Origin: an uncultured Halomicronema sp.
GTDB taxonomy: Bacteria > Cyanobacteriota > Cyanobacteriia > Phormidesmidales > Phormidesmidaceae
Direction: 5' to 3'
NCBI GenBank assembly: GCA_937899725.1
Contig: CALCCA010000114.1
Location: forward strand, 1-64,000
DNA: 64,000 nucleotides
Below are positions 339 through 45,982 of this stretch, in pieces. Numbering within the stretch: position 1 is the stretch's first letter; every line of letters begins with the position of its first letter. A program made the position numbers and the translations under genes. The notes under the pieces were generated by a model. That model saw nothing but the letters and a program-made list of their open reading frames with translations. It made no database searches and was not told the DNA's origin.

Positions 339-1805
339 CTAGGATATTGCAGACTGAGAGGCAATAACTACAGCCTCTGAACTCGATTCTGTAGCGCGTT
401 GCACCATTTTTTTCCGTTCATCAATAAAGCGATTCATTTCTAAGGCGAAGTTAGACTGTTGTTGAGCAACAGAAAATACCGCATCACCATTCAGCACCAC
501 GAGTTCCACATCTTGCAGTGCCGTCACAGAAACCCAGCTGGGTTCGTTGCGCAGTAGCGACATTTCGCCAAACAGATCACCGGTTTCAAGGTAAGAAATT
601 ACCTGGGTACTACCGGCATGATCAGGGCATGAAAGGGTGATTTGGCCTTGAAGTAAAATGCAAATCCCGGCATCAATCTCACCAGCGTGAATAATGGTTT
701 CACCCGCGCCATAATATTTCACCTCTGCCTGATGGGCCAGGGTGTCGAGCACGGTTTCATCCAGTAGTCGAAAAATGGGTAAAGCCGCGAGGGCTTTCAA
801 AATATCAGGGACATAATCCTGACCATCAGACGGATAATCCGGCAACACATAATGTTTCTCGAAGGGCATCGGTGGCATCAACCGATGGCGTTTTGCCGCA
901 TAATAGACATTCGTAATAAACTGCCCCTGAATGGTTGACGCATTCGTGAAATCAGCAATGCAATATTGCACCTCATATTCGGCTTGATGATCGGTAAATT
1001 TCAGGGGCCGAACTTCCGGCTCCGGCTCCGCCAAGATACCCTCTACCGCCAGTGCCGACGCCTTGAGAACGGGAATGACCCGATTGGGCGCTTCTTCATG
1101 GGAAAAGTTAAAGGTGACGCGATCGCCGTGGAGCGGATAGAGCAACGTGTAGTTATAGATGGTCTCCTTACCCAAAACTCCATTGGGAATAATCACCACA
1201 TCATGGTCAGGCGTCCTCAGTCGCACGGCCCGCCAATTCACTTCTAAAACTTCGCCTTCGACATCATTAACGCGAACCCAATCCCCGACCTGAAAGGGCG
1301 ATTCGAAAATGAGCAAAAATCCAGATACCAGGTTGCTGAGGGTATCTTGCAGGGCCAGAGCAATGACTAAAGACCCCACCCCCAGGGCCGCAATGACTTT
1401 GCTTAAATCTACCTGCCAGACGGTCGCTAATAGATAAGCCGCAACACATAGAATAACCCCGACCCGCGCTACCTGAAAGAGCAAATTGGGAACATCAATT
1501 TGCCAGTCATACTGCCGATTGCCTGGAACCAGAATGCCATTTACCAGGGCAATGAGGCTGTAGATGATGGCCAACCCTAGCGCTGTGGAAATGATTTGTA
1601 TGGTGATGTCTTCAGCGGGTACATGGAATAGCTTTAGGGTCACCAGGAGAATTGCTAGGGGCGGCAAGACAAATACGCGGATACTATGAAACATATCCGC
1701 TAACGGATGGTTGCGCAGACGTGAAACGATCTCTCCCAGGCCAATTGAGCCAGCTGGGACGGCCATGATTAAAATCAAGGCCCACGTAATTTGTATCTGT
1801 TCCAT
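339..1805 (-). CDS. MscS-family mechanosensitive channel with C-terminal cyclic-nucleotide-binding-like domain
   Basis: 488 aa inner-membrane channel. About four hydrophobic segments lie between residues 8 and 160. The MscS pore/beta region follows (glycine/alanine-rich pore helix ~135-165, then FQVGDWVRV at 171-179). A cNMP-binding-like domain occupies ~340-460, with LFGEMSLL at 411-418. Family knowledge: such bCNG channels couple a nucleotide-binding domain to an MscS pore. In the phosphate-binding cassette the usual EPR.ATV reads EPSWVSV (421-427), so the Arg that contacts the cyclic phosphate is absent. Whether it still binds cAMP or cGMP is doubtful. The gene follows the cyclase-like receptor by 41 nt on the same strand, so an operon is likely. 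Confidence 0.88.
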   Translation of the reverse strand: MEQIQITWALILIMAVPAGSIGLGEIVSRLRNHPLADMFHSIRVFVLPPLAILLVTLKLFHVPAEDITIQIISTALGLAIIYSLIALVNGILVPGNRQYDWQIDVPNLLFQVARVGVILCVAAYLLATVWQVDLSKVIAALGVGSLVIALALQDTLSNLVSGFLLIFESPFQVGDWVRVNDVEGEVLEVNWRAVRLRTPDHDVVIIPNGVLGKETIYNYTLLYPLHGDRVTFNFSHEEAPNRVIPVLKASALAVEGILAEPEPEVRPLKFTDHQAEYEVQYCIADFTNASTIQGQFITNVYYAAKRHRLMPPMPFEKHYVLPDYPSDGQDYVPDILKALAALPIFRLLDETVLDTLAHQAEVKYYGAGETIIHAGEIDAGICILLQGQITLSCPDHAGSTQVISYLETGDLFGEMSLLRNEPSWVSVTALQDVELVVLNGDAVFSVAQQQSNFALEMNRFIDERKKMVQRATESSSEAVVIASQSAIS

Positions 1806-1846
1806 GGCGACATCCCTAGTTTTCAGTGTCGAGTGAATTCAAATGC

Positions 1847-4228
1847 TTAATCATCAAACGGGTCAATGCCCAATTCTCCGGCAAGATCACCCACAATTGA
1901 GGCTTCATGAGTGGGTGCTGATGACGCGACTTTAGAGGACTCTGGAGTCGGTTGAGCCATCACCGGATCGGTTTCTTCGCCTGTCCGATTATCTGATGAT
2001 TCGTCTTTGTCTAAGAACTCTGGAGATGATAATTCAGTCTTCATTTCAGTCTCTAAACCCTCTGAAGATAACCCCTGAGCCAAGCCGCTGGTGAGTTCTC
2101 CTATCAGATCGGTGAGGGCATCTTTGCGGAGTATCCAGGTGTCGATTTTGGCCTGACTGTCCAAGGAAAGACTGTTGCCTGGTTGAAAGTCATAGAACCC
2201 CTTGAGGCGATCTCGCACCATTTGAGTAGTCACAATGCCACTCGTGTCTGTCGTGTCAATGAGTTCACTAGCAATGGCCACCGGCTGGCCCAACAGGTCA
2301 TAACTCAACGGTTGATTGCCCAGCACACCTGTAGCCACAGTGCCCGTGTGAATGCCCAGGCGCAAACTCAGGCAGGTTTGATGACGACTATTGAAACCTT
2401 GGATGAGATCCAGCAAATTGAGGGCGAAATCCATCATTCGCTTTTCATGATCCAGCCTGGGTTTGGTGAGACCACAGGTGGCGATGTAGCGATCGCTAGC
2501 AAATTTAAAGGGCTCGACATCATTGCGCCTGGCCGCCTGGTTAAAGGCACTCAATAGCTCCGTCAGGTATTGAGTCAACGTGCTAGCGGTCTGCTGTTCA
2601 GACAGGGAACCCAAGCCGACAATTTTGGCAAATAAAACGGTGACCTGCTGGGTCTGGGTGGCAATCAAGGATTCTTTGCGCTTGATGCGCTCGATAATCT
2701 CACCGGGCAGAAGTTTCTGCAAAATATCCTGAGCATCATAATATTGCTGCTCAACGTGGTTGATTTGTTGGCGCATTCTTTGGACAACTGTATTGAAAAT
2801 AGCGGCCAACTCGCTAAATTCATCGGTGGAGTCAAAGAACACATTGGCATCTTCTTGACCCAGCTCTGCTTGTCGGGAGGCTGCAATCAGAGTATCAATG
2901 GGTTTCACAAAATTAGCAGCAATAATACTGGCCAAAAAGGTCAGAGCCAGCATCAAAATCACGGTTGAAATGAGCAAATAGGTTTGGAGAGAATAGACGG
3001 ACTGATAGGCTTCAGCTAGATCCATTTCCGATAAAATCGCCCATTGTAGCCCCGGTAAATTCACAGGAGCGTAGGAACTCAGCACCGGAACGCCGCGATA
3101 ATCTTTTATGATCTGGGTTCCTTCCTGCCCGGCGATCGCTTCTTGTGCTGCTTCTGTATTCACTCGCTGCAGCAAAATTGAGGTATCTAACTGATCAATC
3201 AAATTGACGATTCGACTGGGCGTACCCGTTGAACGCAGCGCTTCTTCATAGCCGGCTTTGTCTTCAATCAAAAACCGAGAGATGGAGCGCATCAGATAAT
3301 CCTCACCCACTAAATAGGTTTCTCCAGACTTACCCAATCCGTCTTGCTCCCAGTGTTTCCCTCCCGTTAAGACCTGATTGATTTCGTTGACCGGCATCTG
3401 TACCGCGAGAATGCCGACAAAGGTGGGGCCATCGTAGATCGGCCCCGCCAAAAATGCTGCTGGAGCCGCATAGGAAGGCTTGTAGGTTTTGAAATCGGCA
3501 ACTTGAATCGCGCCCCGATCAGGATTATCCTGCACTGCTGCGACGATCTCAGCCAAATTACTGCGGCTGTAGGGACCATTGTCTAGATTGGTGGCGTAAT
3601 CCGTTTCTTTATAGACAGAATAGACAACGTCTGACGTGCGGGGATCAATTAGGAAAAAGTCGTAGTAGCCAAACTTTTGAATGAGGTTTTGAAATAGGTG
3701 ATGGTACCGGTTATGAACAGCGGTGTAAGCGCTGCCATCACTGGCCTCTGTCAGCGCATCCTTATGCCCCACTGGATGGGGATTGGCCGCAATGTAGTGA
3801 TATTGCAGATAACGGGCTGCATTGCTTTTAGGGGCGTAGGTTGCATAATTCGGCGTACCCGCAATATGTTCAGTTAACTTGGGAAAAAAGTTCTGCTCAT
3901 AATAATTACGAATGCTACTTTCCCAGTCGGTTGGAGTGGTTTCCTGGTTGAGCTGGTCATAGGCCGAATCAAACTCCTGCACCGCCGATACCACCATGCG
4001 GTCTTCACAGAGCGTTTCAACATGGTTTTTGAAGGTGGTGAAATAGGATTCAATCTGATAGGCCTTTGAGGCCCTAACGCTCGTGAGATGGTCAAAAATA
4101 TTTTGCTTGAGCTCTGCCCGCGCCCAGCTCCACCCTAAGAGACTGATCGAAATAATCGAAATCAGGCTGACACCCAGCAAAATCACCTGAATTTTTGACT
4201 TAATGCTGAGATGACGAAGGCCAATCAT
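1847..4228 (-). CDS. Cache-HAMP-class III adenylate/guanylate cyclase-like receptor, probably catalytically degenerate
   Basis: 793 aa membrane receptor. TM1 is ~12-34, a large extracytoplasmic Cache-type sensor spans ~40-410, TM2 ~415-437, HAMP ~438-490, then a short coiled linker, a class III cyclase domain ~525-690 and an acidic, Ser/Thr-rich tail ending GIDPFDD. The cyclase fold is clear (VTVLFAKIVG at 529-538, RLGIHTG at 623-629, YDLLG at 643-647). However, the first metal-binding Asp is Lys535, the transition-state Asn is Ala651 and the catalytic Arg is Glu655. The purine-recognition Lys575 and Asp644 and the second metal Asp579 remain. It therefore looks like a pseudocyclase that may bind nucleotide or act as a sensor; this is inferred from motif alignment by eye. 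It lies upstream of the cNMP-domain channel in the same operon. Confidence 0.85.
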   Translation of the reverse strand: MIGLRHLSIKSKIQVILLGVSLISIISISLLGWSWARAELKQNIFDHLTSVRASKAYQIESYFTTFKNHVETLCEDRMVVSAVQEFDSAYDQLNQETTPTDWESSIRNYYEQNFFPKLTEHIAGTPNYATYAPKSNAARYLQYHYIAANPHPVGHKDALTEASDGSAYTAVHNRYHHLFQNLIQKFGYYDFFLIDPRTSDVVYSVYKETDYATNLDNGPYSRSNLAEIVAAVQDNPDRGAIQVADFKTYKPSYAAPAAFLAGPIYDGPTFVGILAVQMPVNEINQVLTGGKHWEQDGLGKSGETYLVGEDYLMRSISRFLIEDKAGYEEALRSTGTPSRIVNLIDQLDTSILLQRVNTEAAQEAIAGQEGTQIIKDYRGVPVLSSYAPVNLPGLQWAILSEMDLAEAYQSVYSLQTYLLISTVILMLALTFLASIIAANFVKPIDTLIAASRQAELGQEDANVFFDSTDEFSELAAIFNTVVQRMRQQINHVEQQYYDAQDILQKLLPGEIIERIKRKESLIATQTQQVTVLFAKIVGLGSLSEQQTASTLTQYLTELLSAFNQAARRNDVEPFKFASDRYIATCGLTKPRLDHEKRMMDFALNLLDLIQGFNSRHQTCLSLRLGIHTGTVATGVLGNQPLSYDLLGQPVAIASELIDTTDTSGIVTTQMVRDRLKGFYDFQPGNSLSLDSQAKIDTWILRKDALTDLIGELTSGLAQGLSSEGLETEMKTELSSPEFLDKDESSDNRTGEETDPVMAQPTPESSKVASSAPTHEASIVGDLAGELGIDPFDD

Positions 4229-5270: not shown

Positions 5271-5597
5271 CTAGTACTGATTCAAGAAGTGTTCGGCTGC
5301 GGCCTGGAAGATCTCTACAAGCTCTGGCTCCATGTAGCGGTACTCATCGGGAATATCCATCACCTCAATCGGCTTATCGGCGACAAGGGAACGAAACTTC
5401 TCCTGTAACCGTTGGTGGTGCTGGGATTCCATCACAAAGATGTAGTCAGCCCATTGAATATCCTGAGCGGTCACCTTGCGGCGGGCTTTGTCACTGGTGC
5501 CTGCCGATCGCACTTGTAAGGTCGGATACCGGCGCCAGACCACTTCTGCCGTCGGACTGCGCCACTGATTGCGACTACAGATAAACAGGATATTCAT
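5271..5597 (-). CDS. Low-molecular-weight protein tyrosine phosphatase-like protein
   Basis: 108 aa when started at the ATG at 5597. The longer frame to 5642 adds 15 residues that do not fit the family. The N-terminus MNILFICSRNQWRS carries the C-x5-R-S phosphate-binding loop (Cys7, Arg13, Ser14) of LMW-PTP enzymes right after the first beta strand. An acidic IPDEY stretch near the C-terminus could supply the general acid. It is shorter than classical LMW-PTPs (~150 aa), matching the compact ~105-aa subgroup. Predicted to be cytosolic; substrate unknown. It is a lone gene. Confidence 0.78.
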   Translation of the reverse strand: MNILFICSRNQWRSPTAEVVWRRYPTLQVRSAGTSDKARRKVTAQDIQWADYIFVMESQHHQRLQEKFRSLVADKPIEVMDIPDEYRYMEPELVEIFQAAAEHFLNQY

Positions 5598-5879
5598 CGT
5601 GCCTCCATCGCGATCGCTGAAATCTTGCAGGCTGATTCCCAATTCTCTGAAAGAAGACGACCACTCTAGCCCCCTACCCCTCAGCTCCCTGGCGTTTTCA
5701 AGATTGCTTTAGGCGTCCAAACACTGAGCATTGTGCTTAGCCTCAGACCCTGACCCCACCTTTTAGCTATGCCGAATAGCCTATGCACTCTTTGAATAAA
5801 GAAAACTCAACGTTTTCCCCCGCTTCTAATTTTTCGCCCTTAGGCTCAATACTGTAAGCAGGTTCCGTATTCTCTGGTC

Positions 5880-43990: not shown

Positions 43991-45982
43991 GTGCCCATGC
44001 TCGCTGACCTGTCTCCGCTTTGGATCTCGCTCAAAACGGCCCTGACCGCGACTCTGCTGGCAGCGCTGTTGGGTATTGCCGCAGCGCGGTGGATGATCAG
44101 CGATCGTCGCCGTGCCCAAAGGTGGATTGACGGCCTCTTCACGCTGCCACTGGTGCTGCCACCCACCGTCGTCGGATTTTTGCTGCTGCTGCTGTTGGGC
44201 AACAATAGCCCGATCGGATGGTTGCTCGACGCCATGGGGATCACCGTGCTCTTTACCTGGGCTGCGACCGTGATCGCCGCCACGGTCGTCGCCTTTCCGC
44301 TGATGTATAAGACGGTGCTGAGCGCCTTTCAGCAGATTGACCGTACGCTAATCAGCTCGGCGCGCACCCTCGGCGCGTCAGAATGGCGTATCTTTTGGCA
44401 ACTCTTGCTGCCTTTGGCTTGGCCAGGGGTGCTGGCGGGGACAGTCCTGGCGTTTGCTCGTGCCCTGGGCGAGTTTGGGGCCACCCTGATGGTGGGGGGC
44501 AGCATTCCGGGCGTAACGCAGACCATGCCCATCGCCATTTTTTTTGCGGCAGAAGCCAGACGCATGGGGGTAGCACTGGCTTGGGTGCTGCTGATGGTGA
44601 CGATTTCGCTGGTGGTTATTGCCGGACTCAATCGTGGCGATCGCCAATCTCACCTCACGACAGCGCGACCCAGTCCCCTGCTGCGACGACTGTTTGACCA
44701 GGTGTATTTTGGCACCACTCTTGACCGTTATTGGGCGCGATCACCAGAATTACCCCTGCCGCCCCTCGCGGCTCCCACTGTAGATTTTGTGGCCCCGGTC
44801 TCGACCGCTCAATCTACATCTGCCGTGCCGCCCCGCGCGCGCGGCGCGCCGACGAGCCCGACCGCTTTATCGACGGGCGCTCCCCCATTGGCGACACCGG
44901 CCCCCGCCCCCAGTGTTGAACTGCAGGTCAACCTGGAGAAAACGATCCCCGGTTTTCATCTGCAGGTGCAGTTTGACACTGGAGAGCAGCCCCTTGGCCT
45001 ACTCGGAGCATCGGGCTCGGGCAAAAGTATGACCCTGCGCTGCATTGCCGGGCTAGAAACCCCCTCTGCCGGGCATATCATTCTGAATGGGCGAGTGCTC
45101 TTTGATGCCGACAAGCGGATCGATGTGCCCAGCCGCGATCGCAAAGTGGGGCTGGTGTTTCAAAACTATGCGCTGTTTCCTCACCTCACCGTGGCGCAAA
45201 ACATTGCCTTTGGCATGCAGGCGCTCCCCAAACCTCAGCGCCCCGCCGCCGTCGCGAACTATCTCACCATGATGGAGCTGACGGGGCTGGGCGATCGCTA
45301 TCCTCATCAGCTGTCGGGTGGGCAGCAGCAGCGGGTAGCCCTGGCGCGGGCGCTGGCCATTCAACCCGATATTTTGCTGTTAGATGAACCACTTTCGGCG
45401 TTGGATACCTATTTGCGTAGCCAAATTGAGCGGCTGCTAGTTGAGGTGCTCTCAACCTATCCTGGCGTGGCGCTGTTCATCACCCACAAGCTCGAAGAAG
45501 CCTACCGGGTCTGCACCGATCTGCTGGTGTTAGACCAGGGGCGCGCGATCGCCCACGGCCCCAAAGCCACCATTTTTGCCAGTCCCCCGACTTATCAAGT
45601 CGCCAAGGTGACGGAATGCAAAAACTTTGCCCACGCCCGCGTCCTCCAGGAGGATCGCATTGAAGTTTTAGAGTGGGGCTGTGCGCTCCGGGTAATTCAC
45701 CCCATCCCCGTTGACCTCAACTATGTCGGCCTGCGCGCCCATCACATCCAGTTTGTGAGATTGGGCGATCTCCCCAATACATTTCCCGGCTGGCTGGCCA
45801 TGGTGAGTGAAACTCAGCACCGAGTCAGCCTCTATCTCAAGCTCCACAGTCCCCCCACCTCAACTCAGGACTATCACCTGCAGGCCGAGGTCTATCGCGA
45901 TCGCTGGGATCTCCTGAAGGGCCGTCCTCAACCCTGGCACATTCACCTCGACCCCACCCAACTTATCCTGCTAACTGATTGA
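43991..45982 (+). CDS. modBC: Fused molybdate ABC permease-ATPase (ModBC)
   Basis: 663 aa. Residues ~1-215 are the ModB permease (LPLVLPPTVVGFLLLLLLG; EAA-loop-like GASEWRIFWQLLLPLAWPGVLAG). A Pro/Ala/Ser-rich linker (~245-310) leads to the ModC ATPase (Walker A GASGSGKS, signature LSGGQQQRVALARA, Walker B ILLLDEPLSALD) and a C-terminal MOP-like region. The fusion is known in cyanobacteria. The start is a GTG at 43991 or the ATG at 43997. It forms an operon with modA. Confidence 0.93.
   Translation: MPMLADLSPLWISLKTALTATLLAALLGIAAARWMISDRRRAQRWIDGLFTLPLVLPPTVVGFLLLLLLGNNSPIGWLLDAMGITVLFTWAATVIAATVVAFPLMYKTVLSAFQQIDRTLISSARTLGASEWRIFWQLLLPLAWPGVLAGTVLAFARALGEFGATLMVGGSIPGVTQTMPIAIFFAAEARRMGVALAWVLLMVTISLVVIAGLNRGDRQSHLTTARPSPLLRRLFDQVYFGTTLDRYWARSPELPLPPLAAPTVDFVAPVSTAQSTSAVPPRARGAPTSPTALSTGAPPLATPAPAPSVELQVNLEKTIPGFHLQVQFDTGEQPLGLLGASGSGKSMTLRCIAGLETPSAGHIILNGRVLFDADKRIDVPSRDRKVGLVFQNYALFPHLTVAQNIAFGMQALPKPQRPAAVANYLTMMELTGLGDRYPHQLSGGQQQRVALARALAIQPDILLLDEPLSALDTYLRSQIERLLVEVLSTYPGVALFITHKLEEAYRVCTDLLVLDQGRAIAHGPKATIFASPPTYQVAKVTECKNFAHARVLQEDRIEVLEWGCALRVIHPIPVDLNYVGLRAHHIQFVRLGDLPNTFPGWLAMVSETQHRVSLYLKLHSPPTSTQDYHLQAEVYRDRWDLLKGRPQPWHIHLDPTQLILLTD

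Follow-up and report, generated by a model that had tools for sequence, protein, structure and literature searches.

Bacterial cyclic nucleotide-gated (bCNG) channels are reportedly members of the MscS superfamily with a C-terminal domain that binds cyclic nucleoside monophosphates (cNMP). The membrane class III adenylyl cyclases (Rv1625c/Cya, 7yzk; 5o5k) join a membrane part through a helical linker to a cyclase fold. Here we describe two adjoining genes, one for a receptor and one for a channel, in a stretch of 64,000 nucleotides (the window) of an uncultured Halomicronema sp., a cyanobacterium of the Phormidesmidaceae (contig CALCCA010000114.1, positions 1 to 64,000). The architecture of the receptor is that of receptor cyclases and the architecture of the channel that of bCNG channels. 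The channel shares the MscS pore module and a C-terminal domain of the cyclic-nucleotide-binding (CNB) fold with the bCNG channels, but its family lacks the phosphate-binding Arg in all members examined and has a co-inherited receptor. The receptor differs from the membrane cyclases in that its catalytic residues and phosphate loop are missing and in that its partner gene encodes a channel. We give about even weight to the reading that the two proteins form a dedicated pair, in which the receptor would gate its own MscS-type channel without cyclic AMP or cyclic GMP (cAMP, cGMP), by direct contact.

Two more distant systems are alike in part. The cAMP-independent regulatory subunit of trypanosomatid protein kinase A (PKA) has a CNB fold without the phosphate Arg, according to PMC6440977 and PMC10959531, but its ribose-binding Glu does not occur in the channels described here. 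Pycsar systems place a cyclase gene beside a gene for a CNB effector, and the pair gives PADLOC matches to them. The cyclase here is, however, of receptor type, apparently disabled and widely conserved, the effector is an MscS-type channel, and the catalytic residues of an active PycC-type cyclase are missing (PADLOC PycC 9.4e-7). A Pycsar defence system was rejected since the PADLOC matches are weak and generic. No account of the receptor-channel pair was found in the open-access papers searched, most subscription literature lying outside that search.

Both genes lie on the same strand in open frames, with the receptor gene upstream. The window starts at a contig end, and any gene downstream of the channel is out of view. 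The features of the locus are as follows.

1847-4228, minus strand: receptor gene, an open reading frame of 793 amino acids.
2123-2671, minus strand: cyclase-like domain of the receptor, residues 520-702, with K535, A651 and E655 and without the KG[KR] loop (from the alignment).
1850-2119, minus strand: low-confidence C-terminal tail of the receptor, residues 704-793 (from the AlphaFold model).
1806-1846, minus strand: intergenic gap of 41 nucleotides, with AGGG, resembling a ribosome-binding site, 8 nucleotides before the ATG of the channel gene.
339-1805, minus strand: MscS-type channel gene, an open reading frame of 488 amino acids.
525-545, minus strand: channel residues 421-427 (EPSWVSV), the phosphate-binding cassette loop in which Ser423 replaces Arg (from the sequence and the alignment).

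The receptor consists of a transmembrane helix, an extracytoplasmic dCache-like sensor (about residues 35-410), a second transmembrane helix with HAMP (about 411-490), the cyclase-like domain and the tail. Pfam matches are to Guanylate_cyc (6.3e-31) and HAMP (6e-6), and the AlphaFold model has a mean predicted local distance difference test score (pLDDT) of 82.8, falling below 50 in the last 90 residues. In a fold search the modelled cyclase-like domain matched solved cyclases at Z of about 25 and, together with the Pfam match, is clearly of the cyclase fold. The fold-search matches covered this domain only; the modelled sensor displays the helix-sheet layout of the dCache kind. dCache_1 itself gave no match in the window receptor at an expectation value (E) of 1, and matches below its cut-off were found in 8/9 relatives tested. 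The same type of sensor is also found in chemoreceptors, in one histidine kinase and in SpoIIE phosphatases, and because it feeds such different outputs, sensor and HAMP together make up a conformational signaller of general use. The tail of about 90 residues is missing from most relatives.

The channel has an MscS pore and beta domain (MS_channel_2nd, 9e-24, with phmmer matches to MscS structures) followed by a C-terminal CNB domain at about residues 335-475 (cNMP_binding, 7.8e-19), as in bCNG channels. Its AlphaFold model has a mean pLDDT of 86.3, and the C-terminal domain matches the CNB domains of PKG and PKA at Z of about 18, confirming the CNB fold.

In class III cyclases catalysis depends on two metal-binding Asp residues, a transition-state Asn and Arg, a Lys and an Asp that contact the base, and the KG[KR] phosphate loop. 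Alignment of the window receptor places K535 at the first metal Asp, A651 at the Asn and E655 at the Arg, while K575, D579 and D644 are retained; three of the six classical sites are thus kept, with only one of the metal Asp residues (D579) among them, and the phosphate loop is absent. These replacements predict that the domain is catalytically disabled. In the channel the Glu contacting the ribose is present (E414), and Ser423 occupies the position of the Arg contacting the cyclic phosphate. In PKA this phosphate contact is made by an Arg of the CNB domain, as PMC10959531 states. Cyclic-nucleotide gating of the channel is unlikely given the Arg loss, and the CNB domain would no longer bind cNMP. 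A first-pass annotation of this DNA had described two genes 41 nucleotides apart, both degenerate, the channel lacking its phosphate-contacting Arg in EPSWVSV, and each of these particulars was confirmed: the gap is 1806-1846, S423 stands at the Arg position, and three of six cyclase sites are lost.

The rest of the genome provides a control. Fifteen of the 17 Guanylate_cyc domains outside the two pairs of this family keep both metal Asp, the Lys, the Asn and the Arg, and the two exceptions (DEDVTQ and NKSNNR) lie within one 528-residue protein (L296/L298, contig C72, about 44428-45711). Loss of the CNB Arg by itself is not rare, as it was read by eye in roughly 8 of the 21 remaining cNMP_binding matches, many of which are FNR-like or weak. 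It is the combination of both lesions in one two-gene unit that stands out as unusual. A second degenerate pair is present in the same genome on contig C113 (L017, 41-7714). On contig C181 (L301, 1341-4361), a cyclase with class III residues is followed after 285 nucleotides by an MscS-CNB channel with the Arg in place (PRTVT). Gene order and logic of this C181 pair are those of the window pair, but class III residues and CNB Arg are kept, and it is a canonical counterpart and a natural contrast within one cell.

The loss in the channel is uniform throughout the family. The Arg was found in 0/88 channels of a first set of relatives, where the position is occupied by Ser (83), Thr (4) or Met (1), and in 0/47 of a second; two of 90 and two of 49 rows, respectively, were dropped for gaps at the site. 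The two counts are not independent, since the sets overlap, ten contigs of one having the same length as contigs of the other (e.g. L178 and L095). The Ser, near-universal in cyanobacteria, looks maintained, and because the Arg is missing in every member examined its loss is most simply, and probably, ancestral.

The cyclase lesions, in contrast, differ from lineage to lineage. Among 89 receptors (one of 90 rows dropped for gaps) all six sites are kept in one, five in 41 and none in nine. Only nine retain the Arg; the Lys is present in 72, the base-contacting Asp in 73, and 28 receptors keep five sites with the Arg alone lost (pattern DKDDNA). The KG[KR] loop was found in 2/88 members (two rows dropped). 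Six sites are kept by 3/51 channel-paired receptors of the second set versus 2/5 receptors without a channel at the locus, the latter a small sample. All the channel-paired receptors with six sites (L130, L175, L208 and L212) are without the loop Lys, and the receptors matching the loop pattern (L137, L141 and L185) are each without other catalytic residues; therefore the full catalytic set of six sites and loop was seen in none of the channel-paired receptors examined. The two receptors that keep six sites with no channel at the locus (L211 and L224) do have the loop Lys (VKG/IKG). On a tree of 86 rows (quick search, with support from the approximate likelihood-ratio test SH-aLRT) each cyclase site changes 7 to 14 times, which makes the changes recurrent; as this tree does not fix the root, it leaves the direction of these changes undefined.

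The first-pass annotation had proposed that both losses occurred jointly in this operon. A joint loss in the window lineage was rejected, since the channel Arg is absent throughout the relatives while the cyclase lesions are lineage-specific, and the 7 to 14 changes per site and the four paired cyclases that keep six residues without the loop Lys point the same way. The check that it suggested, whether homologs keep the pair and the same substitutions, shows that they keep the pairing (80/83 genomes, below) and the absence of the channel Arg; the cyclase substitutions vary. It had also held that a pairing confined to this strain, or canonical residues in one partner, would speak against it. 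Neither result was obtained: pairing is widespread among homologs, and the Arg is missing from every homologous channel scored (0/88; 0/47).

The conservation of the pair was surveyed in 388 genomes of the class at a threshold of E 1e-60. The channel matched in 77 genomes and the receptor in 81. For 78 of the 90 channel matches a receptor match lies within 15 kb, always on the same strand, with the receptor upstream in 75 and the match ends at most 200 nucleotides apart in 68. Pairing rises to 81/90 when weaker receptor neighbours are added and to 83/90 with receptors cut by a contig end. Counted by genome, both genes were found in 75, the channel only in 2, the receptor only in 6 and neither in 305, and it is this uncorrected table on which the Fisher test was performed. 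Among the eight exceptions, a truncated piece of the partner adjoins at a contig edge in five, two lie at contig edges where the case is undecidable, and one (G212) matched through the sensor only, so that both genes are present in 80/83 cyanobacterial genomes with any match. Pairing persists also in lineages whose cyclases keep none of the six sites. A tandem duplication of the receptor was seen at L132 (156-5307). A plasmid-borne element was rejected, as a comparison with 72,556 plasmid records gave no match at E 1e-40.

The pair is not restricted to cyanobacteria. When genome contigs were scanned with the alignment of the sensor, and the best 80 of at least 571 relatives examined, at least 19 non-cyanobacterial loci with receptor and channel adjoining were found. 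These loci are assigned to Verrucomicrobiota, Pseudomonadota, Bacteroidota, Ignavibacteria/Kapaibacterium, Planctomycetota and Campylobacterota, one being left unassigned. Almost all come from metagenome bins, and their taxonomy is that of the record labels. Their channels are 27-32% identical to the window channel (17/19 aligned), and on account of this low identity they are not close cyanobacterial contaminants. The pair is thus a conserved module present in several phyla. Among individual loci, L220 (7998-17204, from an unassigned bacterium) has three family receptors in a row beside one channel, and at L234 (5105-13767) both receptor and channel are tandemly duplicated.

Receptor and channel have also diverged together. 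Their distance matrices over 81 loci correlate at r 0.967, much of which is explicable by species history alone. A test that holds the genome constant employed ten genomes with two or three pairs each (22 pairs in total), and the cognate assignment was the best of 9,216 within-genome assignments (r 0.874 versus a mean of 0.273); therefore partners stay together through duplication. Ratios of nonsynonymous to synonymous substitution (dN/dS) for receptor and channel are 0.062 and 0.074 in one close genome pair (L080/L082) and 0.065 and 0.072 in another (L017/L081), so that purifying selection on receptor and channel alike is strong in these two pairs. For 276 codons of the window receptor, compared with a congener, the ratio was 0.168, and the comparison of the window with L076 was saturated.

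These observations can be accommodated by the following mechanism. The dCache-like domain would sense an extracytoplasmic ligand, and the ligand-driven change would pass via HAMP into the cyclase-like domain, which, no longer making a cyclic nucleotide, may serve as a signalling relay and may gate its own channel by contacting the cytoplasmic parts of the latter. The cNMP-fold domain of the channel would then no longer read cAMP or cGMP. Signalling without a messenger is suggested because the receptor apparently cannot make one, the channel apparently cannot read one, and the partners rarely part. As most receptors retain Lys575 and Asp644, a purine nucleotide may still be bound by the cyclase-like domain.

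Several observations weigh against this reading. The ribose-contacting Glu is kept in 73/88 channels, which is more than a dead pocket needs, and the four channel-paired cyclases with six classical residues might retain some activity. Six genomes (G172, G192, G206, G246, G260 and G294) carry both genes but not as neighbours, and no extra operon partner of the kind described below was found in the clade of the window, where the contigs of both the window and L076 run out. Finally, the partial correlation of the cyclase domain is higher with the MscS body (0.67) than with the CNB domain (0.31). Such domain-wise values are descriptive, as the distances are not independent, and since co-divergence is strongest with the MscS body a contact between receptor and channel, should there be one, may bypass the CNB domain.

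Among other explanations, the one that survives best is that the CNB domain binds another small ligand, be it a nucleoside, an ATP/ADP-like nucleotide or a metabolite, which the receptor senses or presents. The modelled CNB fold is intact, and besides the similarity to PKA and PKG domains (Z of about 18) it matches the guanosine-bound regulatory subunit of T. cruzi PKA (6hyq) at Z 16.6. The retention of the ribose-contacting Glu in 73/88 channels is in concordance with such a ligand, as is the precedent of trypanosomatid PKA, where PMC10959531 reports polar residues at the position of the Arg and purine nucleosides, rather than cyclic nucleotides, as ligands. The Glu that these kinases carry in the ribose cassette, at position A202 of PKA, was found in 0/88 and 0/48 channels, however; the exact trypanosomatid mode of binding is therefore not present, and a nucleoside pocket of that type was rejected. 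We consider binding of some other small ligand unlikely, though well worth keeping in mind.

Slightly less probable still is a cyclase of low or altered activity, with another base or product, which would supply a non-standard cyclic nucleotide to the channel. There are class III cyclases that tolerate changes in the active site, 28 of the 89 cyclases lack the Arg only, and four channel-paired ones keep six sites. Against this, the window protein is without the first metal Asp, the Asn, the Arg and the phosphate loop, nine of the 89 keep none of the six sites while pairing persists there, and the channel Arg is lost throughout. That the channel is a conventional bCNG channel gated by cAMP or cGMP, another residue replacing the Arg and the messenger coming from other cyclases of the cell, appears improbable: the architecture is that of the bCNG family and 15 further cyclase domains of the genome do retain the metal Asp, Lys, Asn and Arg, but the channel Arg is absent in every member examined, the loop has no conserved basic residue, and the long retention of a partner with a disabled cyclase would be left unexplained. 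Ordinary decay of a cyclase/channel operon whose joint function is gone is barely credible, for although the residues lost differ between lineages, the open frames, dN/dS of 0.06-0.17, the pair in 80/83 genomes with a match and the cognate co-evolution all contradict it; the earlier claim that the pair had not decayed at random is borne out by its conservation, its evolution as a unit and dN/dS of 0.06-0.07 in the two close pairs.

Returning to gating by a dedicated receptor, neighbouring genes in some lineages hint at the input. Clustering of neighbour genes by similarity gave one cluster (n=17), of a PstS-like periplasmic binding protein, with PF12849 in 8/8 members tested and TIGR02136 matches in 5/5 tested, one of them above the cut-off of that model. 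The gene is located downstream of the pair in cyanobacteria and upstream in contigs of Thiotrichaceae, Thiotrichales and Campylobacterota, mostly overlapping or at a spacing of at most 91 nucleotides. It adjoins the pair at L078, L083, L143, L145, L151, L171, L172, L181, L223, L201, L205 and L242, and is found beside an incomplete pair at L239 (receptor only found) and L161 (channel only). At six loci from four genera, in the clade to which the C113 pair belongs, an Amt ammonium transporter gene is found upstream, with a glutaminase-ankyrin gene directly downstream at three of them; the C113 pair itself is flanked by the Amt gene on one side and, on the other, by a gene of glutaminase type that contains ankyrin repeats. 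In such lineages the PstS-like protein or the Amt transporter of the operon could be part of the input, and the ligand is perhaps phosphate or ammonium status. Upstream of the window pair, a small frame (5271-5642, minus strand) resembles, and may encode, a low-molecular-weight protein phosphatase. The mean number of cyclase sites kept is 1.33 with a PstS-like partner (15 sequences), 0.67 with Amt (6) and 3.81 in the others (124, a redundant set). No link between partner and degeneracy is claimed, because an independent-pairs test on the tree gave no support for one (4 pairs, median p 1).

Taken as a whole, and somewhat more tentatively than for the pair itself, we propose a two-gene class of bacterial ligand-gated channels, in which a dead-cyclase receptor would act by direct contact, and which would have arisen from a second-messenger circuit that lost its messenger at both ends, was kept across several phyla and became tuned to nutrients in some lineages. 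If this is true, a family with the appearance of a cyclase and a cyclic-nucleotide-gated channel would turn out to consist of receptor-gated channels that work without cyclic nucleotide. Its members would form a natural series, from near-intact to wholly degenerate, along the path from an enzyme-messenger-channel circuit to a direct receptor-channel complex. Cyanobacteria and others would thereby gain an MscS-type channel under the control of a ligand, possibly tied to nutrient status.

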